A DNA stretch of 56,668 bases from Dielma fastidiosa (GTDB lineage Bacteria > Bacillota_I > Bacilli_A > Erysipelotrichales > Erysipelotrichaceae), in assembly GCF_000313565.1 (NCBI RefSeq), contig NZ_HE578927.1, positions 48,875-105,542 on the forward strand, read 5' to 3'. Below are positions 41,888 through 56,515 of the stretch, one piece after another. The notes beneath the pieces were generated by a model. It was not told the DNA's origin. It ran no database searches and saw nothing but the letters and a program-made list of their open reading frames with translations. Positions within the stretch are counted from its first letter, which is position 1, and every line of letters begins with the position of its first letter. The position numbers and the translations under genes were made by a program.

Positions 41888-42778
41888 ATGATTGATCCTA
41901 AAGTAATGACACTGCTGGCATTAGCTGAAAATTGCAGCTATACCAAAACCGCTAAAAAAATGGCACTCACTCAGCCAGCGGTAACCCATCAAATTAAGCT
42001 GCTGGAAGAAGACTATAAAATAAAATTATTCCGCCGCGATAAGAAAAAACTGGTCCTTACGCCGGAAGGTGAGGTTCTGGTTAAATATGCCCGGCGAATG
42101 AGCGCGCTGAACGACAACTGCCGGCAGGCAATTGAAGATACCCGGATGTCAGTACACAGCCTAAATATCGGTATGACACCGACTGCTGAAGAAACCATCG
42201 TACCTCATGTTGTTGCCCGCTACTGTAATATGCACAATGATATTCACTTCAATGTAACCACAGATGCTATAAATAATATTTATGATAAGTTAAAAAATTA
42301 TGAATTAGATTTAGCTATTGTGGAGGGAAATCTTTTCAATCCTAAATTTACCTCGGTACTTTTAGATACTGATTACCTGTGCGTTGCTGTTTCAAAGGAG
42401 CATCCAATCGCAAAAAGTAAACGAAAAAGCATCTCTTTACAGGAATTAAAGAAAGAAAATTTTATTTTGCGTTCTCGCAGCGCAGGTACTAGACAGCTTT
42501 TTGAAAATCAGCTTGTCTCTCACTATGAGCATATTAAAAATTTTAATATCATATTGGAACTGGACAATGTCACGACGATTAAAGAACTCGTTGCCTCTAA
42601 TTTTGGTATTACGATTATTGCTCACAGCGCCTGTACCCGTGAAATAGCTAAAGGAACATTAGTAACACTGCAGATTGAAAACATGAATCTGACCCGTGAA
42701 ATTAATATGGTATATCACAAGGATTTCAAACACCTGGATATGCTTGATGATCTTAAAAATCTCTATGAATCAAAATAA
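41888..42778 (+). CDS. LysR-family transcriptional regulator
   Basis: A 296-residue LysR-type regulator: N-terminal helix-turn-helix (SYTKTAKKMALTQPAVTHQIK, in two blocks near residues 15-36) and a two-lobed effector domain from about residue 90. The start is the ATG behind GAAGG at 41,888; the upstream ATG lacks a site. It is divergent from the antiporter and probably controls it; the ligand is unknown. Confidence 0.92.
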   Translation: MIDPKVMTLLALAENCSYTKTAKKMALTQPAVTHQIKLLEEDYKIKLFRRDKKKLVLTPEGEVLVKYARRMSALNDNCRQAIEDTRMSVHSLNIGMTPTAEETIVPHVVARYCNMHNDIHFNVTTDAINNIYDKLKNYELDLAIVEGNLFNPKFTSVLLDTDYLCVAVSKEHPIAKSKRKSISLQELKKENFILRSRSAGTRQLFENQLVSHYEHIKNFNIILELDNVTTIKELVASNFGITIIAHSACTREIAKGTLVTLQIENMNLTREINMVYHKDFKHLDMLDDLKNLYESK

Positions 42779-42798
42779 AAGAGCGCGAGCTCTTTTTA
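42775..42798. terminator. Bidirectional terminator LysR/DUF1307
   Basis: An 8-bp stem AAAAGAGC/GCTCTTTT (42,777-42,784 and 42,789-42,796) shared by the convergent ends of the LysR gene and the surface cluster. Confidence 0.8.
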
Positions 42799-43248
42799 TT
42801 CATTTTCTGTGCATTCAAGACCCATTTCACGATTCATGGCTAAAGTTTCCTTGATGCCGATTTGGGTTGTTGTTTCATCAGCATTGCGGACAATGCCGAT
42901 GGCAGACAATTCTTCAATCGATGCCGCTGTAAAATCAATATATAATGTCTCAATAAAGAATTGATCATCAATCTCATAGCTATATTCTATTCCCTTGACA
43001 GTGCGATAAATAGCTGCCGCTACTTCAGCCGTAGCCGTTAATTCATCAGCGCTTACCGCACTCATATCCAACTGAACTACATTCACATTCTTCTGCGTTT
43101 TCACATAATTATCATCATGTTCAAAAATGGTTGTGACCGCCGCGCCGCCGGCATTCATCGTACAGACGCTTTCCTGAAGCTCATTGACCGACGCTGACTG
43201 ACAGCCGCAAAGCAGTAAAATCATTAACCCTATACTAATTTTCTTCAT
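42796..43248 (-). CDS. DUF1307 (YehR-like) lipoprotein, downstream copy
   Basis: A 150-residue lipoprotein: signal peptide with LCGC lipobox (Cys16) directly followed by a DUF1307 domain (VCTMNAGGAAVTTIFEHDDN through GLECTENE). It is a paralogue of the 54,394-54,933 gene but lacks its proline-rich linker. Only 19 bases separate it from the GT2 gene, so it is likely the last gene of the surface cluster. DUF1307 has no established function. Confidence 0.85.
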   Translation of the reverse strand: MKKISIGLMILLLCGCQSASVNELQESVCTMNAGGAAVTTIFEHDDNYVKTQKNVNVVQLDMSAVSADELTATAEVAAAIYRTVKGIEYSYEIDDQFFIETLYIDFTAASIEELSAIGIVRNADETTTQIGIKETLAMNREMGLECTENE

Positions 43249-43267
43249 CGCGTACCTCCTCTGATGC

Positions 43268-44227
43268 TTATACTTTTTTGCTTAATAAATATCGATTTAA
43301 TAATCGGCAGGCACGCTCATAACCAAGCAACGCAACCAACCGCCGGCAGCCTTTTGCCTTTTTATCTGACGCATAATTTAAAATATCTTTTGCGCTGGCA
43401 GTCTGTTTTTGACCTTCATCACTCAGATAAGGAACAAACTCCAACAATGAGGCATATTGAAAAGCAAGAAATGCATCCACAGCTTTTTCACTCCCTGCTT
43501 CATGATCATGAATACAGCGCAGCACTACTGTCTTAAAATCATCAGCGATGCGTTCATAGCGCTGAGTAATCGTATTGCTGTGCTGACGGTAGCAATGCAA
43601 AACATGGGGGCATAATGCGATTTGGGGATTTAAACGCATCAGCTTCACATTCCACTCAATATCCTCACAATAAGTATTCGCTTCAAACCATAATTCACCA
43701 TCAATCAATAAACTTCTTTTCAACACCCGGTTCCATGCGCAGCCAAGTGGATAATTGTATCGAATCATTTCATTAAACAGCTGATTTTGAGGGGTGTCAG
43801 CATTAAGCAGACGCTTTAATACATGCGGTGTCCGATTGAACCAGTGGCTGATATCCTTCTTTGATTCAAAGAAAATCACATCCTTTTGATCCTTCAAATA
43901 CTTGTTCAGACAGCTGAATACCCGCTCATCCGCCAGCCAGTCATCACTGTCTAAAAATAAGATATACGATCCTCTTGATGCTTTTAAGCCATTGTTGCGC
44001 GCCACTGACAAGCCTTGATTCTTTTGATGAAGCACATGTACAAATGGAGTATCTGATGCATAACGATCACAGAGCAGTGAGCTACCATCCGTTGATCCGT
44101 CATCCACAAGTATAACCTCATAATCAAAACAAGCTTGCTGATGCAGTACACTTTGCATACATGCCGGCAGATACTGCTTGGTATTATAAACCGGAATGAT
44201 GATACTCAGTAAAGGTTCAGTCCGCAT
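43268..44227 (-). CDS. Family 2 glycosyltransferase
   Basis: A 319-residue GT-A fold glycosyltransferase. The nucleotide-sugar region begins LLSIIIPVYNTKQYLPACMQ, with VDDGSTDGS, the DxD-type FLDSDDWL and the later CEDIEWNVK (the usual ED base motif). It would add a sugar to the lipid-linked glycan begun by the split PGT. It overlaps the O-antigen-ligase-family gene by 11 bases. No membrane helix; peripheral enzyme. Confidence 0.9.
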   Translation of the reverse strand: MRTEPLLSIIIPVYNTKQYLPACMQSVLHQQACFDYEVILVDDGSTDGSSLLCDRYASDTPFVHVLHQKNQGLSVARNNGLKASRGSYILFLDSDDWLADERVFSCLNKYLKDQKDVIFFESKKDISHWFNRTPHVLKRLLNADTPQNQLFNEMIRYNYPLGCAWNRVLKRSLLIDGELWFEANTYCEDIEWNVKLMRLNPQIALCPHVLHCYRQHSNTITQRYERIADDFKTVVLRCIHDHEAGSEKAVDAFLAFQYASLLEFVPYLSDEGQKQTASAKDILNYASDKKAKGCRRLVALLGYERACRLLNRYLLSKKV

Positions 44228-45560
44228 AGTTTCTCATTTTTGACTCATTTAATTGCTGTCCCGCGCCCAAACCAAGCAGTATCCATAAAAGATGCGCACT
44301 CAGCATATAGCTGATCCCGAAGAAAGCCTGAACTAAATAACCGCAAACCGCAAAAAGACAAGCGGCGCTGACCCAGGTTGCCTGTTTGCTGATAAAGCGC
44401 TGAAGAATGTTTTTCAAACAAGTGCCATAGATACTCAAAAGACACAGCAGCATCGGCAGACCCATGGTTAAAAGAACTTCAAGATATTCGTTGTGCGCTT
44501 TATCATAATACTGAGCATTATTTAATGGATAAACAGAATGATAAAGCAATCCGAATGTATCAGGGCCGCTGCCTAACAGCCATGTTTGTGGAATAAATTT
44601 TAATGCGTTCTTCCACACCAGATAACGGCCTGAGCCAGATTTTTCACTGATTGTCTCGCCCAAAAGCGGCCCCAGGCCATCCTGAAGCTGCTGTATAAAA
44701 CGCTGCATCAACGGGTGATTTGTCACAAGCATAATAAGCAGTACAAGAAGTATGGCAGCCGTTCCTAAAATCGTCAGCTGACCTGAATCCATGCGCCAAT
44801 GGGGACGCCGCTTCCATTCCTTAAGCATGACTGTTATCATCAGTAAAAAAACAACACATAATCCCAAAAGGCCGCCCATTGCTTTCGTCATTAAAACAAT
44901 AGTTATGGAAAACATAAGACTGCCTAAGAAAAACAATTCTTGCCGCCAGTTTTGAGCCATTATAAAGCCAGCTGCGCCGACACCGCTCAGCATTACCATA
45001 TTAGCCGCCAGAAAATTGGCATTGCCGCATAAACCGGGCACTAATTTTACCTCACGGTACAGCTCACTGTAATATGTCAGTCTTGGCATGATTTCAAAAT
45101 ATTGAATGATTGTATAAATACCGTTGATTAAACCAGCTCCCAGCATCGCATACAACACCCAGCGGCGATGCTTTTCCTCACAAAGACTTAAACTGCTAAG
45201 CAATAGTGTAAAGTAACAGCACCATGTTGTGAACCCTTCATAACGGCTTGGTTTACCTTGTAAAGAAAAGCTTTGATTCAATGAATTCAGTGCTGACAGA
45301 AAGATCAAACTAATCCCAATCAGCAAAAGTATCAATAATAGCTTTTGCTTAAACCGCATAACCCCCTGGGTCAGTTTAATCAATGTAATAAAAAGCAAGG
45401 CAGCGCTGAATAAATCAAGTACAACTGGAAAATATTCACCGCGCATTAAGATCTGCCGGAATATAACGCTGATGGGCATCATAAAGATTAACGCAATCAG
45501 CAAATAAGTACCGCCCAGCTCACAAAATCGATAGATAAGGTTTCTGTCTTTTTCTTTCAC
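44217..45560 (-). CDS. O-antigen ligase / Wzy-family membrane protein
   Basis: A 447-residue protein with about ten to twelve membrane helices and a large external loop holding SGRYLVWKNALKFIPQTWLLGSGPDTF and the YDKAHNEYLEVLLTMG block; these are the Wzy_C/WaaL signatures. Members polymerise lipid-linked glycan units or ligate them to lipid or, in some Gram-positives, to protein. It starts at GTG behind AGGAGGC. Position next to a PGT and a secreted protein makes protein glycosylation a candidate role. Confidence 0.88.
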   Translation of the reverse strand: MKEKDRNLIYRFCELGGTYLLIALIFMMPISVIFRQILMRGEYFPVVLDLFSAALLFITLIKLTQGVMRFKQKLLLILLLIGISLIFLSALNSLNQSFSLQGKPSRYEGFTTWCCYFTLLLSSLSLCEEKHRRWVLYAMLGAGLINGIYTIIQYFEIMPRLTYYSELYREVKLVPGLCGNANFLAANMVMLSGVGAAGFIMAQNWRQELFFLGSLMFSITIVLMTKAMGGLLGLCVVFLLMITVMLKEWKRRPHWRMDSGQLTILGTAAILLVLLIMLVTNHPLMQRFIQQLQDGLGPLLGETISEKSGSGRYLVWKNALKFIPQTWLLGSGPDTFGLLYHSVYPLNNAQYYDKAHNEYLEVLLTMGLPMLLCLLSIYGTCLKNILQRFISKQATWVSAACLFAVCGYLVQAFFGISYMLSAHLLWILLGLGAGQQLNESKMRNYAD

Positions 45561-45577
45561 AATAGCCTCCTGCTTTC

Positions 45578-45636
45578 ATCAAAACGCCCGAAAACTTCAG
45601 ACGCTTTGATGAAAAGGCAAATTTTCTTGCCTTTTC
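45578..45636 (-). terminator. Tandem hairpins between the 901-aa gene and the ligase gene
   Basis: On the minus strand a 10-bp stem GAAAAGGCAA/TTGCCTTTTC (45,611-45,636) is followed at once by a 15-bp stem with G-U pairs (45,578-45,610, loop of three). The first resembles a weak intrinsic terminator. The second carries GTCTGAA...TTCGGGC, similar to the hairpin at 48,442-48,464. Confidence 0.7.
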
Positions 45637-45646
45637 AATTAATTGC

Positions 45647-48352
45647 TTATTCTATAATCATTACAGTATCTGCAGCGCCATGGTATGTATTTCCGTTATA
45701 GATTACACTGCCATTGCTGCCAGCATTAAGCTGTAATGTTCCACTGCCGGTAAATGTACCTTCAATGGTTAATACAGCACCGTTATTCAGCTGTAATACA
45801 TTTGCTTCATTCAGCTCACCAGCCGTCATAGTTTCTGAACTGTTGATTGGATAGACTTCTGACAATCCGGTAGCTTTCAGATAGTCAGCAACTGAGCCAA
45901 GATAAACAAGCTTCACATTATCTCCCTGTAAACCTGTTGTGCTGAGATCAGCGATTGCGTTGCCTGTGCTGTCTTTCCATACTAATCCATTGGCTTTTAA
46001 TGTTTCAGCGCCGCTGATCAGCATCTTCGTGCTGTCCAAAACAGTACCTGCACTGCCTATAACTCTGAATTCAGGATGCAGCGTTAATTTACCTGATGTA
46101 TTTGCATTGCTGACCGTTATTGTATTGCCATTTGCATTCAATTCACCAAATAAGGTCATGGTCATATTATCAGCGACAGTTATTGTTTTATTAGCAATCA
46201 ATTTCACATCGCCAACCTCAACATCACTTTCGACCATATATGCCGTACTAGTATCATCACTCAAATATGCTGTCAGCTTCGTACTGTCAGTGCTGGCAGT
46301 CTGTGAAGTTACAGTTACGGTGATTGAACCAATCTGAGCATTGCTTAAATTGCCATTTGGTACGCCGCCCATAACCAGATAGAAATTCTGGCTGTCACTG
46401 CCGCCGCCGGCACTCGATAAGGCCAGATAAGTGCCTGCTGCGTAAGATGCTTTGCCAGCGTAATCTTTTTCATTACTGTCGGTCTTATCAGCACCCGCTT
46501 CCTTATAGAATGCACCTGAATAATTCTTATCCAGCTGTAAATTCAGCTTCGCATTTACCGATGCATTTGATTTATTAATAACATTAATCAGATTGTTTGT
46601 ATTATCATTACCATTCCAGCCTAATTCATTGCCTGCAGACGGTAATGTTTCACCTTTACCAGCATCATAGCTGCCGCGGTCATAAACAAACTCCATATCA
46701 CCCCAGTTGAGCTCAACCTTATAGCTGATATCACCGGCAGTTGTCAAATAGATTGGAATCTCAATGCTGTTGGTAGCCGCACCATCTGAGAAACGTGTCC
46801 AAGCCGAGGCGACAACACCGCCTATTGATGAAGTAAAGGTTTCCGTTTTGGCAACAACTGGTTCTGCTGGAGTAGAGAATAATTTAGCCATTGAGCCTGG
46901 CTCTGCTGTATAATTCACACTCATTGTCTCTAAAGGATTGGCGAGTCCGCTCAGATCCTTACCCCGCAGTGAACCGGCAGCTCCTGTATAGCTTTCATCC
47001 GCACCTACTTGAATATTATAAGTTGTTGAATCAACAGTGATCGAATTATATCCAGAACCTGAAATAGCGCTGACTAGAGATAATTCATAGTTAGTTAATA
47101 AGCCTTTTAATGAACCGGAATATCCGTGAGTATCATTCAGCAAATCTAATTTAAATAACTGCTGAGCATCCTTAAATTCTTTTAATCCCTCATAAATAGG
47201 ATAGCCTGATGTATCGACATCGGCATAATACAAGTTATAGGCTCCCCTTACACTTGAATTTTTAATTGATGATGTAGTCATACCACCTAATTTACTTTGA
47301 TCCGGAATCGGCTCACCTGTAATCCCAGCTATCCCGCTGATTAATGCATATCGGCGCATAACGCCATCATTAAGTTTGACAGACGGAGTGCTCTGAAGTC
47401 CGGCGTATCGGTGACCGCTATCCGATGCCAATAACAAATCAACATTGATATTCATTGCTGCATTACTGATGGTTCCGCGATTGATTGCAGTCAGACCATA
47501 ATAGAAAGGCATACTTGATAAAATTGTCACATTTCCATCTGCACTGACATTTGAAACAGTGCCATGATTTTCCATTATCAAGCCAAAACCCGTCGCACTG
47601 CCTCTGTAGTAGTCGGTTAAGTAAGACTCCATTGGTATTAAATTTGTGCTTACGAATTTATCAATAATCTGTACATTAATATCCCTGAATGTAACATTCT
47701 TAAATTCACCATCATTATTCAACATAAAATAATTCTCACCTAAGAAATATCCGCCCACATTCTTAGATGCGTTATAGCCACTTAAGTTTGAAATACCCCA
47801 GTCATCAGTACCATCTTTATCACCGCTATATGTACGCTGAATAGTTAAGTTGCTGATTATTTTATCATTACCATTAAAATTTCCTTTAAAGTCTACAATA
47901 TTACTGCCTGTCGAAGGGGCATAAAAATAATCAGAAGTTTGAGGACTTGAACCGGGAAAAGTTGCTGTATATGTCGCTTGAGTAGTACCACTATATATAG
48001 CTATACCACCTATACCAACCCACTGCTTGCCAGCTAAATCAATATCGTTCATTAATTTGATTGTCGCATCTCCAACTTCAGCAGTACCATAACTTACACC
48101 ATCCACAGTTACTCCACCGGTCATTAAATATGACACGAAGCCTAATCCGGTAGCTGTCATAACCTGAATTTCAGATACCACATGACTACTGCTGTCTTCT
48201 ACAAATCGATAATCTTTTCCCTTTTCCGCTGACTTACCCGCTTCAAACCAAGTTTCAGCCGTTGCGGCTGCCTGTACCTGTGTTGGGAAAACAGCTAATA
48301 TCATTGCTAATGCAATAAAAAACGCACCAAGTTTTTCTATTAACTTTTTCAT
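45647..48352 (-). CDS. 901-aa secreted surface protein with GLUG-like region and WGD/GNDN domain
   Basis: A signal peptide (about 1-28, cleaved near VQAAA) is followed by a GLUG-like beta-helix region (about 90-330; blocks such as NDIDLAGKQWVGIGG and FKGNFNGNDKIISNLTI), a linker, a domain with WGD at 550-552 and WNGNDNTNN at 579-587 running to about 690, and a C-terminal beta-rich part. No LPxTG, S-layer homology or membrane anchor is seen. Very rich in Ser, Thr, Asn and Gly, so a possible glycosylation target. Follows the PGT gene after a 130-base structured spacer. Confidence 0.82.
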   Translation of the reverse strand: MKKLIEKLGAFFIALAMILAVFPTQVQAAATAETWFEAGKSAEKGKDYRFVEDSSSHVVSEIQVMTATGLGFVSYLMTGGVTVDGVSYGTAEVGDATIKLMNDIDLAGKQWVGIGGIAIYSGTTQATYTATFPGSSPQTSDYFYAPSTGSNIVDFKGNFNGNDKIISNLTIQRTYSGDKDGTDDWGISNLSGYNASKNVGGYFLGENYFMLNNDGEFKNVTFRDINVQIIDKFVSTNLIPMESYLTDYYRGSATGFGLIMENHGTVSNVSADGNVTILSSMPFYYGLTAINRGTISNAAMNINVDLLLASDSGHRYAGLQSTPSVKLNDGVMRRYALISGIAGITGEPIPDQSKLGGMTTSSIKNSSVRGAYNLYYADVDTSGYPIYEGLKEFKDAQQLFKLDLLNDTHGYSGSLKGLLTNYELSLVSAISGSGYNSITVDSTTYNIQVGADESYTGAAGSLRGKDLSGLANPLETMSVNYTAEPGSMAKLFSTPAEPVVAKTETFTSSIGGVVASAWTRFSDGAATNSIEIPIYLTTAGDISYKVELNWGDMEFVYDRGSYDAGKGETLPSAGNELGWNGNDNTNNLINVINKSNASVNAKLNLQLDKNYSGAFYKEAGADKTDSNEKDYAGKASYAAGTYLALSSAGGGSDSQNFYLVMGGVPNGNLSNAQIGSITVTVTSQTASTDSTKLTAYLSDDTSTAYMVESDVEVGDVKLIANKTITVADNMTMTLFGELNANGNTITVSNANTSGKLTLHPEFRVIGSAGTVLDSTKMLISGAETLKANGLVWKDSTGNAIADLSTTGLQGDNVKLVYLGSVADYLKATGLSEVYPINSSETMTAGELNEANVLQLNNGAVLTIEGTFTGSGTLQLNAGSNGSVIYNGNTYHGAADTVMIIE

Positions 48353-48426
48353 TTAATTCTCCTTTCAATCTCGCTTTTTTCTAATTCCATACTGTAATGC
48401 TTAATTTTTATCGTTTCGCCCCCTCC

Positions 48427-48479
48427 TTTGCTTTTCCGTCAAAAAGCCTGAAATTCAGACTTTTAAACAGAAAAGCAAA
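48427..48479 (-). terminator. Nested hairpin between the PGT and 901-aa genes
   Basis: Outer 10-bp stem (48,427-48,436 with 48,470-48,479) encloses an inner stem (48,442-48,464) containing GTCTGAA/TTCAGGC and followed on the minus strand by TTTTT. The inner part can act as a terminator; forming the outer stem would compete little with it, so partial read-through is likely. GGAGGGGG follows with no start codon at the proper distance. Confidence 0.65.
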
Positions 48480-48482
48480 AAT

Positions 48483-49055
48483 TTACTCACTGCGATGCTT
48501 CTCAAAAATTACCATAACGGTTTTCATTAAGATCAACAGATCCAGCATCAGCGTCTGTTTCTGGATATAATACAAATCAAAAGCAAGCTTACTTTCAATA
48601 TCACTGCTGTACCTTCCCATTACCTGCGCATAGCCTGTCAGTCCCGCTTTCACACTTGTCCGATATGAAAATTCCGGTAATCGCTTGATAATCTCATCGG
48701 CTAATTCCGGACGTTCTGGACGCGGCCCAACTAAACTCATCTCACCTTTTAACACATTCATCAGCTGCGGCAATTCATCGATTCTCAGTCTCCGCAAAAT
48801 TCTGCCAACCTTGGTGACACGCTGATCCTCAGCATCACTTATTCGCGCGATGCCGTCGGCCTCCGCATTCACCCTCATACTGCGAAGTTTAATTACCTCA
48901 AAGCAGTGATTTCCCTGCCCATAGCGGCGCTGGCGGTAAAAGATCGGCCCGCCGTCCTCAAGATAGATGCACAATGCCGCGATTCCCATCAGTGGCGAAG
49001 TAATAATCAGAAGCAGCATGGAGATAACAATATCCATCACACGTTTAGAGAGCAA
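48483..49055 (-). CDS. Polyprenyl phosphoglycosyltransferase, catalytic half
   Basis: A 190-residue monotopic PGT domain (bacterial sugar transferase, PglC/WcaJ-C type) that transfers a sugar phosphate from a nucleotide sugar to undecaprenyl phosphate, starting a surface glycan. It has the re-entrant helix (about 6-30 with the SP kink), the catalytic D93-E94 in RIDELPQ and PRPERPE at 111-117. It starts at TTG behind AAAGGAAGG, 19 bases inside the preceding gene. In larger relatives this domain is fused to the domains encoded by that gene. Confidence 0.92.
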
Positions 49056-49726
49056 AGCCTTCCTTTTTGCTGATGACTCATTAATAAATCACTGACAACT
49101 ACCGTATCGCCGCTCAGCAGCACATCTTTGATTTCACAGCGTTCATACCATTCCCTGCCTAGTTCAAAACAAAGCTGATTTAATCGATAACGTTCTGCCG
49201 TACTGATTTTTTCAACAAGCAGTCCATCTACAGCTTTCAGCCTTTCTGCGTCAACTGCTTCTGATGACAGTTTATCTACAATCTTAAAACGATCAGCACG
49301 CGCTCTAAACTCATAAAGTGCCAGCCCAGACTCACCGACGTGAATCAATGTTTTACAGCCATGCCGATTTTGATAATAATGATCCACCGCTTTGCTCCAG
49401 ATCAGTGCCCATATCAGCTGCGTACCGATTAAAAGCAGCAGCGGCAGCAGATTCATAAAACGATAGGCAATCAATGATATTTCTAAATAAAGCACCGGCG
49501 CGCTGATTAAGCTGCTTAAGCTATGTATAAATAAGATTTCATCACGGCTTTTCTCCGCTATCTGATAACCGCCATTGATTATCTTAAAGACTTCAAGTTC
49601 AAGCAGTGCCAGCATGATGATTACCACATTACCCCAAAAGTAATAATAAATGGTTTCACCATAACCAAATTCCCAAAATATCGTGATAAAGATCAGCTGT
49701 GCCAATAAGTCAATCCAACCGCTCAT
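49037..49726 (-). CDS. Membrane and Rossmann-like half of a split WbaP/WcaJ-type transferase
   Basis: A 229-residue protein with about four membrane helices in the first 130 residues, then a CoA-binding-like nucleotide fold (GCKTLIHVGESGLALYEF onward) cut short before the catalytic domain. It matches the N-terminal part of polyisoprenyl glycosylphosphotransferases. The catalytic part is the next gene, overlapping by 19 bases in another frame. Start overlaps the preceding stop as ATGA. Either a natural split or an old frameshift. Confidence 0.75.
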   Translation of the reverse strand: MSGWIDLLAQLIFITIFWEFGYGETIYYYFWGNVVIIMLALLELEVFKIINGGYQIAEKSRDEILFIHSLSSLISAPVLYLEISLIAYRFMNLLPLLLLIGTQLIWALIWSKAVDHYYQNRHGCKTLIHVGESGLALYEFRARADRFKIVDKLSSEAVDAERLKAVDGLLVEKISTAERYRLNQLCFELGREWYERCEIKDVLLSGDTVVVSDLLMSHQQKGRLCSLNV

Positions 49727-50784
49727 CGAATCTCAATGCCTACCGGCAGCTGACTGTTCAGCAATGCCTTTTCCTGACTTTCACTGTCATAAAACACTAA
49801 TTCAATAATTCCCTTATAAGTACCCGGCGGCAAATCGGTGCCGTCCTGTAAAGCATTCAGTGTCAATGTCTCAAGTCTTGAACCAGCCGGTACCCGTCCG
49901 GAAACAGCTAAATCCTGACGGTATGTTTCAGGATCATATTCCCCTAATACTTCAAGGCGTTTTTGATCAAGAAAGGTTCGATGATTGACACCTAGCTTAT
50001 CGATCAGCTCCTGATCACTGATTGTCAGCTTCACAACAATGTCCTGGGTAGAATTGCCGGGATTGTAGAAGGCCAGCTCGCCGATCCCGTCGGTAAAGAC
50101 AATCAGCCGGTTAAATTCAAATGCCGCTGTATTACCATTCTGGGGTTTAAGGCCATCATGAATTGCCTGCACATTTCCATCAACCGGAACCGATGGATAA
50201 GGGATACCCAGCTTCAGCAGCAACAGCAGCAGCGGGATAAGAAACAGCAGCAGAAACCACGGCCTTTTATGTTCATGAATCAATCCCACCGCATAATTTT
50301 TAATCAGAATCCCATCACGGTTCTTCCCAACCAGGCCGCCGGCGTACTTTTTAGCTTCAATGCGGATGGCACTGCCGCAGCAGCTGATGATACCGCCTTC
50401 CATCATCCCAGCGATACCGCCGCTGTATTCGGCCCCCTGTATCATACCGTCAACAGTGAGATTAACGATCTTCGCATCCTTAAGACAGCCAAATAAACCG
50501 CCGTATTTTCGTTTCCCTTTGATTTTAAAATTGGTAATGCTGTGATTGCCGCCATCAAATATACCCTTGAAAGGAAGCGCATCATCTTCCCCAATTGGTA
50601 TGAGTTTCTTGCCTTGAAAATCAAGATCAGCGGTAAGCCGGCAGGCCGCATATTGATATTGGCGGTTGCCTCGATTCACACCATCCGCAAAGGCTGTAAA
50701 ACCTTCAATGCTGTCAATTTCAATCCATTCATCAGCAGCGCCGCTTTCAATGTGAAATGCATCTTCCTTGAATCGACGCGGCAC
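49723..50784 (-). CDS. GLUG-repeat membrane protein, C-terminal part after frameshift
   Basis: The frame is open upstream to about 50,883, well before the GTG at 50,784 used for the 353-residue count, so this is the larger part of a frameshifted gene. It has GLUG-type repeats (YGGLFG, SGGIAG, AGGLVG; about 60-165), a basic HEHKR then one membrane helix (176-195), and an extracellular beta-sandwich-like domain to the end. The positive-inside rule puts the GLUG repeats in the cytoplasm, contrary to the usual case. Stop overlaps the next start (ATGA). Confidence 0.72.
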   Translation of the reverse strand: MPRRFKEDAFHIESGAADEWIEIDSIEGFTAFADGVNRGNRQYQYAACRLTADLDFQGKKLIPIGEDDALPFKGIFDGGNHSITNFKIKGKRKYGGLFGCLKDAKIVNLTVDGMIQGAEYSGGIAGMMEGGIISCCGSAIRIEAKKYAGGLVGKNRDGILIKNYAVGLIHEHKRPWFLLLFLIPLLLLLLKLGIPYPSVPVDGNVQAIHDGLKPQNGNTAAFEFNRLIVFTDGIGELAFYNPGNSTQDIVVKLTISDQELIDKLGVNHRTFLDQKRLEVLGEYDPETYRQDLAVSGRVPAGSRLETLTLNALQDGTDLPPGTYKGIIELVFYDSESQEKALLNSQLPVGIEIR

Positions 50785-50843
50785 TTCATCACGGTTCCAT
50801 GTCCGCTCATAATCCCAGGGCAGGTTTTGAATTGATTCAGAAT

Positions 50844-51125
50844 CTAAAGCCAGCTCACTGTCCGCAAATTCCTTTTTCTTTTTTTACGGTCATCAATATA
50901 GAAGATATGTTCCATGATGCCTTCATTTTTAGCTGCAAAGCCGGCCATGATTTTTCCCCGCTTTGAATCTGTTTGACACCAGCTGTTATAAATCTCACCA
51001 TAGTTACAGCCAATAAAACCGCCGCTGCTTTGTCCGCCGCTAAGCTTCACCATGGCATAGCAATCTTTAATATAACTGTTGCTGAGGCCAGCCAGACCAC
51101 CCATAAGACATATCTTTTTCTTCAT
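50844..51125 (-). CDS. GLUG-repeat protein, N-terminal part before frameshift
   Basis: A 93-residue open frame starting at ATG 51,125 behind GGAGGAATAAG, one base after the upstream stop. It opens with a GLUG repeat (GGLAGLSNSYIKDCYAM) with no signal peptide, has a second (SGGFIGCNYGEIYNSW), and reads out of frame after KKRKR at an A7-G-A5 run (50,873-50,885). Adding one A to the seven-A run would join it to the following frame as one protein of about 475 residues. Frameshift mutation, sequencing error or slippage. Confidence 0.65.
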   Translation of the reverse strand: MKKKICLMGGLAGLSNSYIKDCYAMVKLSGGQSSGGFIGCNYGEIYNSWCQTDSKRGKIMAGFAAKNEGIMEHIFYIDDRKKRKRNLRTVSWL

Positions 51126-51126
51126 C

Positions 51127-51657
51127 TTATTCCTCCAATGCATCAATCCAAGATGTTTTCACACGCAGCACGCCGGCTGAATAATGGGTGCCCTGTTCAT
51201 AAGCCAAAACCTCGACGCGAAACTGTTTTTCAAGTGCTTTGACCTTGATTCCAGCCAGCATCTCTCCCGGTGAAAGCAAGCCGCTTTTAGCTTTTATTTG
51301 ACCCTCTTGATCAAGAATCACTAACTGAATATCAACCTTACTTTCTGGCTGATTCATTAAATAAATCATCAATTCATCCTGTTCATATACCGGGGAAATA
51401 CAAAAGCCTGTCACATAGCCTTCATTTACTTCATAGATTTGATAACGCATGCGCTCATCAAGCATAGATGGATCAATCAATACCTGTGCTTTGGGCTCAT
51501 GGCGCGGCAGCAGGAAGCCATCCCATCGATATACCGCCAGCAGCATCATGAGCAGAAGCAGCAAGCAGCTAACCGCAATCTGAAAGCGGCGCTTTTTATA
51601 CTGCGCATTACTGCGGCTGCTCGTCAGCTGTTTCATTTGTGTCATTGGCTTTGACAT
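51127..51657 (-). CDS. Single-pass membrane protein of the surface cluster
   Basis: A 176-residue protein with a basic N terminus (KKRRF), one membrane helix at about 25-43 and an extracellular beta-rich domain. The domain (ELMIYLMNQPESKVDIQLVI through YSAGVLRV) looks weakly like the external domain of the GLUG membrane protein (ELAFYNPGNSTQDIVVKLTI through GTYKGIIELV), so the two may interact. It starts at ATG 51,657 with AAAGGAAG, inside the last 50 bases of the preceding gene. No family recognised. Confidence 0.72.
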   Translation of the reverse strand: MSKPMTQMKQLTSSRSNAQYKKRRFQIAVSCLLLLLMMLLAVYRWDGFLLPRHEPKAQVLIDPSMLDERMRYQIYEVNEGYVTGFCISPVYEQDELMIYLMNQPESKVDIQLVILDQEGQIKAKSGLLSPGEMLAGIKVKALEKQFRVEVLAYEQGTHYSAGVLRVKTSWIDALEE

Positions 51658-53299
51658 CCGCTTCTTCCTTTCGATAAATCAGCTTGACAGCCGGTGTGCC
51701 AGCCGTAGTTTCTTCACCCAGCAAATCAATAAACCGATAAGCATTCAAGTCCTGATGACTGCCTGCTATCAGTGAACTATCTTCATCACATTCCGCCAAA
51801 ACATCACCATCCAACGCATCAACCGCCTGAAACTGATCAAAGCATAACGTACCGCCGCCGCTGACACGATAAATATTTCCATTCATTTCATGCTCGCCGC
51901 TTAAAATCAAAGTCTCTCCTTTTTCAATCGTAAGATCAAATGCTTCAGCTGGTTCGTTTAAATTCTGCGGCTCATTTTCCATCGATGTCACAGTTAAGCT
52001 TAAAGAGCCGATTTGTTTTTGATGCTTATACTGATCAAGATCCGGATTTCCTGAAAGTACGACATAGAGGTCAAGCTGAGTCGGAAGATTGCTGGCGGCC
52101 GCGATCAGTTCTTCCTCATATGCCGCTAATTCACACATATCATAATCATATTCATCACTGCCATCACTTTTACTGCCGGCAGTCTTATAAACATCACCCT
52201 TAATATTTCCATCATCAAGCTGCAGCTCATGGGTGATCATAACCGGAAATAATGAATAATTATTAACCCGGATATGATTGTTTAAATTATCATTGCCCTG
52301 CCATGACATACGATCACCATCATAGCTGTAACTCAAATCGCCCCATTCTATCTGAACCTGATATTTGTCTGATTCCGCATAAAGGAAGGGACTGGCTGGC
52401 AGATAATAATACAGAATCTGCTGATTTAAAAATTCAGCGTGCTGGTCAATATTGGCAAATTCAATCCACGCTGTCTGCGGCAGCTTATTCCCCTCCCGTG
52501 TTATTAAGGTCAGCACATCGCCCGTATTCGTCATGAATCGTGAATTCTGTGCATTCATTTCAGCATCACCAATCAAATCAATCATTGTATAAGCCTGCTT
52601 ATCCGCACTTTGAGAATAAATCTGAATACCGGCTTCTGATCCGGCAAAAAAGGCATAGGAGCTGACTGCAAGAAAGGGTGCTGACATTGAAGAGGCAGCT
52701 TTAACACTTAACATGCCCGCGTGTTCACTCTCACTGATTAGCTGAAACGATGAACAGCGCAGCGGTGTAAAGTTACTATCCTCATCAATGACGATTGTCA
52801 GCTGATGGCCATTAAGATCGATACTTAAAAATTCAGTGTCAGCATTTGGCAGATCAGCGGCATTTACTGAAACATCACTCAGCAGTGTCAAGCGAATGTC
52901 TTTTTCCTGTGCCAGACATTCCCGAAAGCCTAAAGCGTCCTCGACCTCACACACCCCGTTTGTATCGGGCAATGATGGTTCTGCATTGGTATCTGAAGGC
53001 TCAGCAGGCAGCGGATCATTTTCAATAATATCTGATGAACTGTCACTGTCACTTGCGGTATCATCTGGCAAAATATCCCCTGCTGTTGCTTCATTTAAAT
53101 CTTCACCTTGATCCGCCTCTTGATAATCGCTGTCCTCATCGGCTGATTCATGATCAGCACTCTCCCCCTCATCTTCAAGAACCTCATTGCCTGTATCCTC
53201 CCATTCTTCAATTTCTAAGAAAGAATGCATTGGCATTGAAGAAAGCAGGCAGAAGATAAGTAATACAAGCTTCCCCTTTCCAATAATGGCAGCAAACAC
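51608..53299 (-). CDS. Secreted acidic surface protein with WGD/GNDN domain
   Basis: A 563-residue secreted protein starting at GTG behind AGGAG. The signal peptide is at about 1-28; residues 30-110 are strongly acidic (Asp, Glu, Ser), then come beta-rich parts. WGD at 319-321 and WQGNDNLNN at 333-341 begin a domain also found in the 901-aa protein, continuing to QIGSLSLTVTS near 455 and followed in both by a NGN strand. No wall anchor. It precedes and overlaps the membrane protein gene. Confidence 0.78.
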   Translation of the reverse strand: MFAAIIGKGKLVLLIFCLLSSMPMHSFLEIEEWEDTGNEVLEDEGESADHESADEDSDYQEADQGEDLNEATAGDILPDDTASDSDSSSDIIENDPLPAEPSDTNAEPSLPDTNGVCEVEDALGFRECLAQEKDIRLTLLSDVSVNAADLPNADTEFLSIDLNGHQLTIVIDEDSNFTPLRCSSFQLISESEHAGMLSVKAASSMSAPFLAVSSYAFFAGSEAGIQIYSQSADKQAYTMIDLIGDAEMNAQNSRFMTNTGDVLTLITREGNKLPQTAWIEFANIDQHAEFLNQQILYYYLPASPFLYAESDKYQVQIEWGDLSYSYDGDRMSWQGNDNLNNHIRVNNYSLFPVMITHELQLDDGNIKGDVYKTAGSKSDGSDEYDYDMCELAAYEEELIAAASNLPTQLDLYVVLSGNPDLDQYKHQKQIGSLSLTVTSMENEPQNLNEPAEAFDLTIEKGETLILSGEHEMNGNIYRVSGGGTLCFDQFQAVDALDGDVLAECDEDSSLIAGSHQDLNAYRFIDLLGEETTAGTPAVKLIYRKEEADVKANDTNETADEQPQ

Positions 53300-53304
53300 G
53301 CTGA

Positions 53305-53904
53305 TTAACTCCTGCGCTGTGCATTGATGCTTTTAATTAGATCGTCAACATTCGTCTCTGACTGCTTTGAAACAGGGATTTCATTACAGACGGTTTGCAT
53401 TGGTAGATCCTCTGCATCAATGATTGTTTCCTGTATCGGGGTTTGTTCCTTAATGGCGGCTTCTTTCTTGATTGTCTGCGGATATAGCTGTTTCACTTTT
53501 TCAACAGCGGCATTGATACTGCTTTCTAAAGGAATCTCCCGCAGTATCTTGGTTGAATAAAGCATATACATCTCTTGTGAATTCTCTATGGTTTTACGCA
53601 TCTTTTCAGCCGTATGCAAAAGATCGATAAAATTAGTACGCATTTCCTGAATTAAGTCTGCCTTTACCTGTTCCGCTTCAGCCCGTATCATTTTGCTGTC
53701 AGCCTCTGCCTTAGCAAGAATCTCAGCCGCCCGCTGCTCTGCTTCATGGATAATCTGATCACTGCGGTTTTGTGCATTCAGCATTAAACGGCTGATTGCC
53801 AGATGTTCATTTTGATATTGGGTGTCCAGCTCATTGAGATATTGATCTACCTCAGTTTTTGAATAACCATTGAATACTGTTTTAAATTTCACTGTTTTAT
53901 CCAT
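53305..53904 (-). CDS. DivIVA-domain coiled-coil protein
   Basis: A 199-residue DivIVA-like protein. The N-terminal membrane-curvature domain (FKTVFNGYSKTEVDQYLNEL) is followed by a coiled coil over about 22-120 and a less ordered tail. DivIVA/GpsB proteins gather at negatively curved membrane at division sites and poles and recruit wall or envelope enzymes. As first gene of the surface cluster, five bases before the surface-protein gene, it may place the glycan machinery in the cell. This is not the usual ylm/divIVA location, so it is a dedicated paralogue. Confidence 0.82.
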   Translation of the reverse strand: MDKTVKFKTVFNGYSKTEVDQYLNELDTQYQNEHLAISRLMLNAQNRSDQIIHEAEQRAAEILAKAEADSKMIRAEAEQVKADLIQEMRTNFIDLLHTAEKMRKTIENSQEMYMLYSTKILREIPLESSINAAVEKVKQLYPQTIKKEAAIKEQTPIQETIIDAEDLPMQTVCNEIPVSKQSETNVDDLIKSINAQRRS

Positions 53905-53943
53905 TGTTCACCCCTCTGCAATCTAAAAAGATTGATTTTTCTA

Positions 53944-53987
53944 TAAAAAAGCAGGAATGATGAAACTTGGGAAAAACATCATTCCTG
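53944..53987 (-). terminator. Intrinsic terminator inside the cluster leader
   Basis: An 11-bp perfect stem (53,977-53,987 with 53,952-53,962, 14-base loop) followed on the minus strand by CTTTTTT, about 40 bases before the DivIVA-like start. Downstream of a plausible promoter, it would act as an attenuator. Confidence 0.75.
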
Positions 53988-54048
53988 TATCGGCGGAAGC
54001 TATATTTTCCTGCTTCCATAATTGTAAACATCCCAGTTTTTCATATAT

Positions 54049-54076
54049 TGTCTTAAAAGGTATACTTTATAAGACA
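54049..54076. promoter_or_regulatory. 28-bp dyad 1
   Basis: Inverted repeat with half site TGTCTTA/TAAGACA and 12 of 14 pairs matched around GTATAC. Its right half (GTATACTTTATAAGACA) recurs with one change, in the opposite orientation, in dyad 2. Confidence 0.6.
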
Positions 54077-54182
54077 GATAAAAACAGGCTTAATAAATGA
54101 CTGAATAAACAAAATTCGGTCATAAAATGAATAAAATCGTAATAAATTATTTACAAATAATGTAAAAAAGATTACAATTACA

Positions 54183-54211
54183 GTGTCTCATAAAGTATAC
54201 TTTTTGACACA
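54183..54211. promoter_or_regulatory. 28-bp dyad 2
   Basis: Contains the exact palindrome AAAGTATACTTT and flanks TGTCTCA/TGACACA. Read on the minus strand, GTATACTTTATGAGACA differs from dyad 1 at one of 17 bases. It covers the TATACT of a possible promoter. Confidence 0.6.
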
Positions 54212-54304
54212 ATTAAGCAAAACGTGATTTTTGTCATGCAAGAAACGATCGTTCATAAACAATTTACAATAAATCGAATTGGCCGTCACAAGCCTTAAAA
54301 GCAA

Positions 54305-54365
54305 CAAAAAAAAGGAAGCATTAATTCAGATTGCAAATGATTGCAATGAATTAAGACTTCCTTTT
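54305..54365 (-). terminator. Terminator of the upstream DUF1307 gene
   Basis: A long stem built from AAAGGAAG/CTTCCTTT, TTAATTCA/TGAATTAA and ATTGCAA/TTGCAAT, with eight T after it on the minus strand. Confidence 0.85.
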
Positions 54366-54393
54366 CTTAATTTATTGATTATGCTAGTTTTAG

Positions 54394-54933
54394 TTATTCA
54401 GCGTCTTTACATTCAATACCGTTTTGGTTGTTTAATTCAAGTGTTTCTTCAATACCCACATAATCAGCTTCACCAGCTTCTACAATACCCGCAGATTGTA
54501 AATCAGCAATTGATGTAGCTGTAAAATCAATTGTTGTTGTTTCTACAAATGTATCATCATCTTTGAATTCATAGCTATACGTTACACCTGCGATAGCGCT
54601 GTATGTTTCATTGGCATTCGCTGCCGCTTCTTCGATTTGTTCCTTATTCAATCCTGCTTTTGATAATACAATCGTATTTGTATTTACTTGTCTCAGAACC
54701 TTAACACCATCATGCTCAAAAGTTGTCTCTACGCTGACACCCTCTTGATTTAAAGCGCAGACGGTCCTTTTAACCGCCTCTTGTTCAGGCTCAGTATCCG
54801 GCGTTGTTGACGGCTCATTGGTTGGCTGTTCAGGTTCATTGACCGGTTCTTCTGGTTTATTTGTCGGCGTTGGAGCTGACGTACATCCCACAAGACATAA
54901 TGCTGTCAAACAGCTTAATAATAGTTTTTTCAT
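54394..54933 (-). CDS. DUF1307 (YehR-like) lipoprotein, upstream copy
   Basis: A 179-residue lipoprotein: signal peptide with LVGC lipobox, a Pro/Glu/Thr-rich linker (about 20-52) and a DUF1307 domain (VCALNQEGVSVETTFEHDG through GIECKDAE). The domain is clearly paralogous to the gene at 42,796, with aligned TFEHD, VTYSYEF and IDFTATSI blocks. It has its own long terminator and lies just upstream of the cluster, so the two copies bracket it. Confidence 0.87.
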   Translation of the reverse strand: MKKLLLSCLTALCLVGCTSAPTPTNKPEEPVNEPEQPTNEPSTTPDTEPEQEAVKRTVCALNQEGVSVETTFEHDGVKVLRQVNTNTIVLSKAGLNKEQIEEAAANANETYSAIAGVTYSYEFKDDDTFVETTTIDFTATSIADLQSAGIVEAGEADYVGIEETLELNNQNGIECKDAE

Positions 54934-55111: not shown

Positions 55112-56515
55112 CTAAAAAGTCCCTACACTCACTTTTGACGTTAAATTTTTAACTGAAAATTCTAAAATGAATTTTCTTACGTCAGTTGAACATTCATCTC
55201 TAAACTCTAAAAATTCACGCATACTCATACTGCAAAAGTATTCTCCGCTAAATAATACTAAATAATTTAGAAATTCTTGTTTATAGTTTTTAAGAATTAC
55301 TGGTAAACATTTACCAATGTATTTTTGTCCATCTTCTGTATTTAAATATAACTGATAAAATAGATACCCTAATAACACACATACTAAATGGAATGAGATA
55401 ATATTTAACTTTGTACTCTTGAAATCTTCAAGTTTCCAGAAGTCTTTTAGTTGTCTGAAATCTTCTTCAATTTCAGTTCTCATATTATATATATTGACAA
55501 TATCACTTGCTGACCTATTCATGTCTGTTGTAATAAACACTTCATAAGATTGAGTATCTTCCGACCATACAACACATGAATTTAAGTCAACATCATGCTT
55601 AGAATTTCTAGTTCTAAAATATTCACCTACATTATTAACGTGACAAATCATTTGATCTTTTCTAGTAGGGTGAGGTTGCCAATCGTCAATTTCTTCTGCT
55701 AATTCAATAGCCATTTCATATATTTCCATACTTTTTCTTACTGGGATGTATGTATCTACTTTTCTAACCGTCTTTAAGTAGTTCATCATTTCTCGTGAAG
55801 TGAATCCTCTATCCATTAGTAGGATGTCACCCTCATGGAAACACGGAGTAGTCTTTAACATTTCTTCACTCAACTTAAAATCGTGAATATTAACTGTACC
55901 AAAACGAACATCTTCGATTAAACCACTATCGTTATAGATACCTCTAAGTGAAGCTAGTTTATAACCTCTCATAGAATTGCCTAATCTATCATAACCAAAG
56001 GTTGAACCTTCATAGTTCTCATTATTATAGTTAACTGCTATCTTGGTACAATCTAATATATGAATATTAGTTTCAATATCCATGGTATTAAAGATATGCT
56101 TTTGTACTACATTGTTATAGTAATTGAATATATCCTCAGATTTATATTTACCCAATAAATGTCTGATAGTTCCTTCATTAAACCAACCATCTGACTTATC
56201 TGTACTCATTGCATTATAACCTAATTCAGCTAATGTTCTGTAATCTTGAATAGCATAAGGAATATCCGTTAAGCTGGTTCTGACTTTCATTTTTGAAACA
56301 ATAACTAAAGCCATTATAAACCTTAAAGGAATCGTGGAATTAGTATTTCTCTTATCTGGAAAGCCTTGGTCTAAGTTATCCAAGACACCTTCATGACACA
56401 TAGAAAGTATAATATCATCAATCAAATTACTGTTGCTTACCATAATACCATCTAACACTTTATTTTTTACTTGTTCCATGACTTTGTTTTTATCTTGTTT
56501 ACAAATTCTAAGCAT
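55112..56515 (-). mobile_element. IS4-like DDE transposase
   Basis: A 467-residue full-length transposase. Acidic residues lie in HILDCTKIAVNY (D), ILLMDRGF (D) and the signature YNMRTEIEEDFRQLK, which fits the IS4-family pattern Y-2-R-3-E-6-K. Codon use is more AT-rich than the flanking chromosome. It starts at ATG 56,515 behind AGGAGGTGGG. The terminal inverted repeats could not be paired because the upstream end lies near or beyond the window end; TCCCTACAC near 55,120 and GTGTAGA near 56,650 are candidates. Confidence 0.85.

Follow-up and report, generated by a model that had tools for sequence, protein, structure and literature searches.

We found that the leader of a surface-glycan operon in Dielma fastidiosa is very probably an invertible (phase-variable) promoter, as judged by comparison of related loci within and between genomes. 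The operon lies in the window, by which we mean the whole stretch of 56,668 nucleotides that was analyzed (features in Table 1). Two inverted 28-bp imperfect palindromes would recombine at their centre and thereby invert a segment of 135 bp with a single strong promoter on it. In the flipped (ON) orientation this promoter would transcribe the surface-glycan operon on the minus strand, and the ON transcript would begin beside the operon-side site and then enter a hairpin-terminator element, so that operon expression would depend on read-through too. Inversion in living cells of this D. fastidiosa strain, the flip rate and the effect on expression are what we infer from the sequence comparisons below.

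Table 1. Features of the glycan operon and its predicted promoter switch, in window coordinates.
Feature	Position	Strand	Remarks
Probable operon, 11 kb	42796..53904	-	close-packed genes, ending at a terminator (42777-42796)
GT2 transferase	43268-44227	-	operon member
Wzy_C ligase	44217-45560	-	operon member
Sugar transferase (initiating)	48483-49055	-	operon member
First operon gene, DivIVA-like, 199 aa	53305..53904	-	paralogue G000:C7:118331 likewise behind a site pair
RNA element (hairpin + intrinsic terminator)	53946..54023	-	one of five genome copies; here a putative leader attenuator
Terminator stem, 11 bp	53952..53987	-	conserved loop TTTTTCCCAAGTTT, then T run
First hairpin, GGAAGC/GCTTCC	about 53995..54017	-	small hairpin
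Operon-side recombination site (putative)	54049..54076	.	outer half TGTCTTAAAAGGTA towards the operon; core AT; inner half TGTCTTATAAAGTA, read from inside
Invertible segment (putative)	54063..54197	+	centre to centre of sites, 135 bp; assembled OFF
Promoter TTTACA-17-TACAAT	54150..54178	+	within the segment, directed away from the operon
Distal recombination site (putative)	54184..54211	.	inverted relative to the operon-side site
Terminator-like inverted repeat	54307..54368	-	behind the upstream lipoprotein gene, between that gene and the switch

The two opposed 28-bp dyads described in an earlier note on this DNA are present, with a start-to-start spacing of 135 bp instead of the 134 bp that it gave, and the 16 of 17 bases they were said to share were recovered by reading TGTCTTATAAAGTATAC and TGTCTCATAAAGTATAC in opposite orientation. 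Pairing extends to 12 of 14 positions in each dyad, and a dyad-like score of at least 12 was reached by just 3 of the 56,641 28-mers of the window. The earlier note had also assumed a promoter upstream of the first operon gene. Positions 53905-54400 contain no minus-strand sigma-70-like match of at least 9/12, and the sole good promoter of the leader region is the plus-strand one between the dyads, which reads away from the operon. Because this promoter is directed away and no other recognisable promoter serves the operon, we consider the operon to be OFF in the assembly.

The view of this region as the regulated leader of a long envelope operon held, with minus-strand genes running from 53904 to 42796 and a surface-glycan content. 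Further genes encode secreted proteins, GLUG-motif proteins and a DUF1307 lipoprotein, and the predicted product of the operon is a surface glycan or glycoprotein. Using the first gene to locate orthologous operons, we retrieved a match in 1 of the 60 relatives searched, namely the own genome itself. Bracketing the operon are two DUF1307 lipoproteins, the one that closes it (42796-43248) and another upstream of the switch (54394-54933), and an IS4-type transposase gene (window 55112-56515) lies just upstream of the switch-adjacent lipoprotein gene.

A site pattern was built from the window dyads and matched with up to 3 mismatches against the own genome (G000, 3.6 Mb), using the reversed pattern as a control. 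This yielded 31 forward and 27 reverse matches (58 strand-matches) against 2 and 0 for the control, indicating that the dyad motif, for which the earlier note had suggested a genome scan, is not there by chance. We inspected 19 regions, 13 of which hold a total of 14 complete pairs; four have sites affected by N runs (L018-L021, excluded from the 14 as their site pairs are cut by, or adjoin, these runs), and two are chance matches (L035 and L036, dropped with a single 3-mismatch match each and no 28-mer within 7 mismatches). The complete pairs are spaced by 114 bp (3 pairs), 124 bp (5), 125 bp (5) and 135 bp (1). One TTTAC[A/G]-17-TANAAT promoter, scoring 10 or 11 of 12, was found inside every one of the 14 segments, and with one segment from genome G006 added, the promoter is enclosed by inverted repeats in 15/15 segments examined. 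The distance from the end of the -10 box to the site centre is 28-29 bp in 12 loci; in the remaining two, the window locus and its paralogue L030, it is 19 bp. By our reading of the loci, 13 of the 14 promoters face away from their target side and one (L027) faces towards it, an excess of OFF states that could mean rare switching as well.

The targets of these switches comprise choline-binding surface proteins, a GGDEF/EAL protein, a LytTR regulator, regulators with a weak Trans_reg_C match and two DivIVA-type glycan operons, and at two loci (L028 and L033) the RNA element is the sole target. Since one site type recurs in at least 14 pairs, a single recombinase probably controls them all, switching surface proteins, several regulators and the two paralogous glycan operons on and off in varying combinations. 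L032 and L034 carry nearly the same small regulator and switch, once on contig C9 and once on C12; their segments are 96% identical. Searching viral contigs with the exact site and RNA patterns returned 0 matches. Looser site pairs of 104 and 114 bp were seen in G006 (L138, 3926-4057) and G066 (L139, 3988-4129), respectively; by eye these enclose terminator-like hairpins and no clear promoter, and they are possible invertible terminators.

Segments of this kind were found in both orientations between unchanged flanks at two sets of orthologous loci and at one own paralogue. The L027 segment aligns with L025, L031, L023b and the G006 locus L137 in inverted orientation only (z 4.7 to 17.4, against same-orientation z of 0.7 or less), while the gene flanks (CCTGGGGAGGT...) align directly. 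Among three congeneric genomes, G127 is inverted relative to G149 and G101 at orthologous locus A, and G149 is inverted relative to G127 and G101 at locus B, with inverted z values of 6.5 to 14.0, same-orientation values below 0, and flank alignment scores far above those of shuffles. We then compared the half-sites of locus A between G127 and G149. The outer halves differ by 1 and 0 mismatches on the same side, and the inner halves by 6 and 5 mismatches on the same side and by 0 and 1 when crossed, such that outer halves remain with the flanks and inner halves move with the segment. Such an exchange of half-sites is the mark that conservative site-specific recombination leaves when it acts at the centre of a site. 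The cores in the congeneric genomes read AG on one side and CT on the opposite side in 8/8 pairs, from which it follows that the sites are inverted repeats; in 7 tabulated pairs from the own genome or G006 the core is AT. The window segment is oriented as in its paralogue L030, the other own DivIVA-type locus, and with equal orientation at these two loci, inversion of the window segment itself was not observed.

Counting 26 pairs from 7 genomes, the spacings cluster at 83/84, 94/95, 104, 114, 124/125 and 135 bp, with a best period of 10.2 bp; six random values were equally periodic in 5e-5 of trials, and the ladder is suggestive only, as many of the pairs are related by descent. Such a ladder fits a loop in which both sites must come to lie on one face of the helix, and together with the palindromic form of the sites it would suit the reading of the earlier note, a DNA-looping regulator, with the dyads as paired operators of a repressor or activator and the enclosed promoter serving something else. 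We consider that reading highly improbable. Operators neither exchange half-sites nor invert the DNA that they enclose, yet both were seen at related loci, and in nearly all own pairs the promoter faces away from the target. The looping operator pair was rejected on the half-site exchange. Across genomes and paralogues, the DNA between such dyads occurs either way round, its half-sites swapped at the centre, so that the dyads behave as recombination sites and not as landing sites for a regulator. With spacings that step by about 10 bp, looping may still be physically relevant as synapsis for recombination; given the half-site exchange, helical phasing is a property of that synapsis and no proof of a repressor.

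We searched the own genome for the enzyme that would act on these sites, identifying five PF00239 proteins, four of them longer than 500 aa and one, the sole match below that length, a small serine recombinase of 217 aa (G000:C6:331203, on another contig than the window). This orphan recombinase is most likely the flipping enzyme, an assignment inferred from its size and from the company its relatives keep. Its nearest solved structures are Sin and gamma-delta resolvase (PDB 2r0q, 1zr2, 1gdt and 4m6f among them). The 19 kb around its gene contain no site pair and two lone 28-mers with 9-10 mismatches. In G127 and G149, 12 bp separate the end of a relative (56% identity) from a site pair with a spacing of 94 bp; the corresponding place in G101 reads N. 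At E 1e-40 or better, 40 of the 145 family genomes have a relative, the enzyme family being common, and the four pair-bearing genomes among the matches listed (G000, G006, G066 and G088) all fall within those 40 (chance 0.005, ignoring relatedness). In the fetched flanks of 80 named recombinase relatives, site pairs at the cut-off were found in 0/80, and 20 shuffled-consensus controls also gave 0.

On the far side of the recombinase-adjacent site pair we noted an 88-aa protein without Pfam match (L182, 1866-2132; L183, 3135-3401), possibly a phase-variable partner of the enzyme. At L173 (9204-13666), DHHW, MBOAT and a second DHHW-like gene come after the recombinase gene, which makes this a likely surface-glycan O-acetylation operon.

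Small serine recombinases typically use 28-bp palindromic sites with a two-base core, as found here. The segment could be invertible all the same by the action of a tyrosine recombinase in place of the small serine recombinase, which we regard as rather unlikely. Ten PF00589 tyrosine recombinase matches are present in the own genome, the strongest inverton-invertase link reported for Clostridia concerns a tyrosine enzyme (PMC11892184), and G006, whose switch locus is 97% identical, encodes no close relative of the serine recombinase (52-56%). The architecture of the sites nevertheless fits a serine enzyme, and for the serine recombinase Sin an AT core is described as letting inversion as well as resolution proceed (PMC2764113). 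A serine relative also lies 12 bp from a pair in both genomes legible at that place, and the G006 locus looks recently transferred: L137 and own L019 are 97% identical across 4.1 kb although two Xer-like recombinases are just 46-55% identical, suggesting recent horizontal transfer of the switch with its surface gene. We retain the 217-aa serine recombinase as the leading candidate.

Between the operon-side site and the first gene, the 11-bp terminator (arms 53952-53962 and 53977-53987, 11/11 paired, T run on the minus strand) and the small hairpin before it were both confirmed. Over 98 bases, the window leader and the leader of the paralogous operon share 82% identity; hairpin and terminator recur in the latter, which makes the terminator probably a genuine control element. 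Attenuation, as proposed in the earlier note, may act here; its antiterminator, which was to form through GCAGGAAA, was rejected since this strand is missing from the paralogous leader. A covariance model built from four copies of the element detected a fifth at L028. Four of the five copies lie just past the target-side site of an invertible promoter and the fifth starts beside an N run; two precede operons and three have convergent gene ends behind them instead of a gene. Comparative RNA folding of the five copies, likewise proposed in the earlier note, supported the hairpin and terminator stems through covariation: 60/60 cells pair, 4/12 pairs change on both sides, and the covariation score was reached by 2/500 shuffles, in an alignment that had been fitted to the structure. 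All five rows have an identical terminator loop, CCCAAGTT, while the stems covary.

Matches of the RNA model elsewhere were marginal, 5 of 271 reaching 26-30 bits in other genomes, and all matches of 26-31 bits (one in the own genome and five in others) were judged to be chance. The leader DNA gave no match in plasmids and phages. Rfam yielded 0 matches at gathering score in the window and sub-threshold matches alone at a lax cut-off, and a known riboswitch or T-box was rejected on this basis. From these results we take the terminator to be, probably, either a genuine attenuator or a small-RNA end. The small-RNA version, in which the invertible promoter would make an RNA of ~140 nt and operon expression would be read-through, is a possibility that we take seriously while leaning against it. 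It would account for the three geneless copies, two of them (L028 and L033) directly past an invertible promoter and the third adjoining an N run, and for a loop conserved amid covarying stems; two copies, however, directly precede operon start codons, no target was found, and the five sequences all come from one genome.

A long surface-glycan operon with an early terminator also recalls the Bacteroides capsule loci as described in PMC13114119, where a NusG paralogue of the RfaH/LoaP/UpxY type would act on the leader. Such processive antitermination, raised in the earlier note, has no factor to carry it: the own genome encodes a single PF02357 match, and no NusG paralogue was found there besides the housekeeping NusG. 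The first operon gene is moreover DivIVA-like and not NusG-like. We rejected this mechanism for want of a second NusG and hold it to be extremely improbable; the factor controlling the terminator is, on the gene content of the genome, predicted not to be a NusG paralogue.

Joining these threads, we suggest tentatively, as a reading that is less likely than not, that the orphan small serine recombinase flips very short, helically phased promoter segments of 83-135 bp genome-wide. Some of these segments would drive RNAs of a new family, structured and self-terminating, that act as stand-alone small RNAs at certain loci and as attenuators of surface-glycan operons at others. Bacilli-type Firmicutes are reported as inverton-poor, with a median of 0 per genome (PMC11892184), and one inverton signature is given for class Bacilli (PMC5903667). 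Our literature search for invertons or invertible promoters in Erysipelotrichia-type bacteria returned no relevant report. At least 14 switches on one site family make surface phase variation testable in such gut bacteria. As the DNA persistence length (about 150 bp) exceeds that of the segments, whose lengths rise in steps of roughly one helical turn, the energetics of synapsis become testable as well, and the coupled RNA element would add a second layer of control that does without a NusG paralogue.

Mpi is the invertase of the invertible promoters at Bacteroides capsule loci. Against the Mpi equivalog model (NF009949) the 217-aa enzyme scored 57.7 bits, with a cut-off of 272, and was not assigned to Mpi. 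The Bacteroides capsule loci are alike in having inverted repeats around a promoter before surface-glycan operons, several loci per genome, and termination control at the level of the leader downstream, with UpxY antiterminators acting there, as described in PMC8748976 and PMC13114119. The Dielma switch differs in belonging to another phylum, in its site and enzyme, in segments of 83-135 bp, and in a leader that holds a conserved RNA element in a genome without a NusG paralogue. The flagellar switch of Clostridioides difficile, with an invertible sequence of 154 bp, the DNA recombinase RecV and an OFF mRNA preferentially terminated by Rho, likewise combines in a Gram-positive gut anaerobe a short segment with post-initiation control in the 5' leader, according to the account in PMC7446863; in Dielma, by contrast, the promoter itself would flip and an intrinsic terminator follow. 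The recombinase resembles Sin, gamma-delta resolvase and the DNA-invertases in catalytic-domain sequence and size; its function in Dielma is a prediction. The Dielma switches resemble PhaseFinder-type invertons, reported as short promoter segments between inverted repeats near surface genes (PMC11892184, PMC5903667), except that those come from read analysis whereas ours were found by comparing assemblies.
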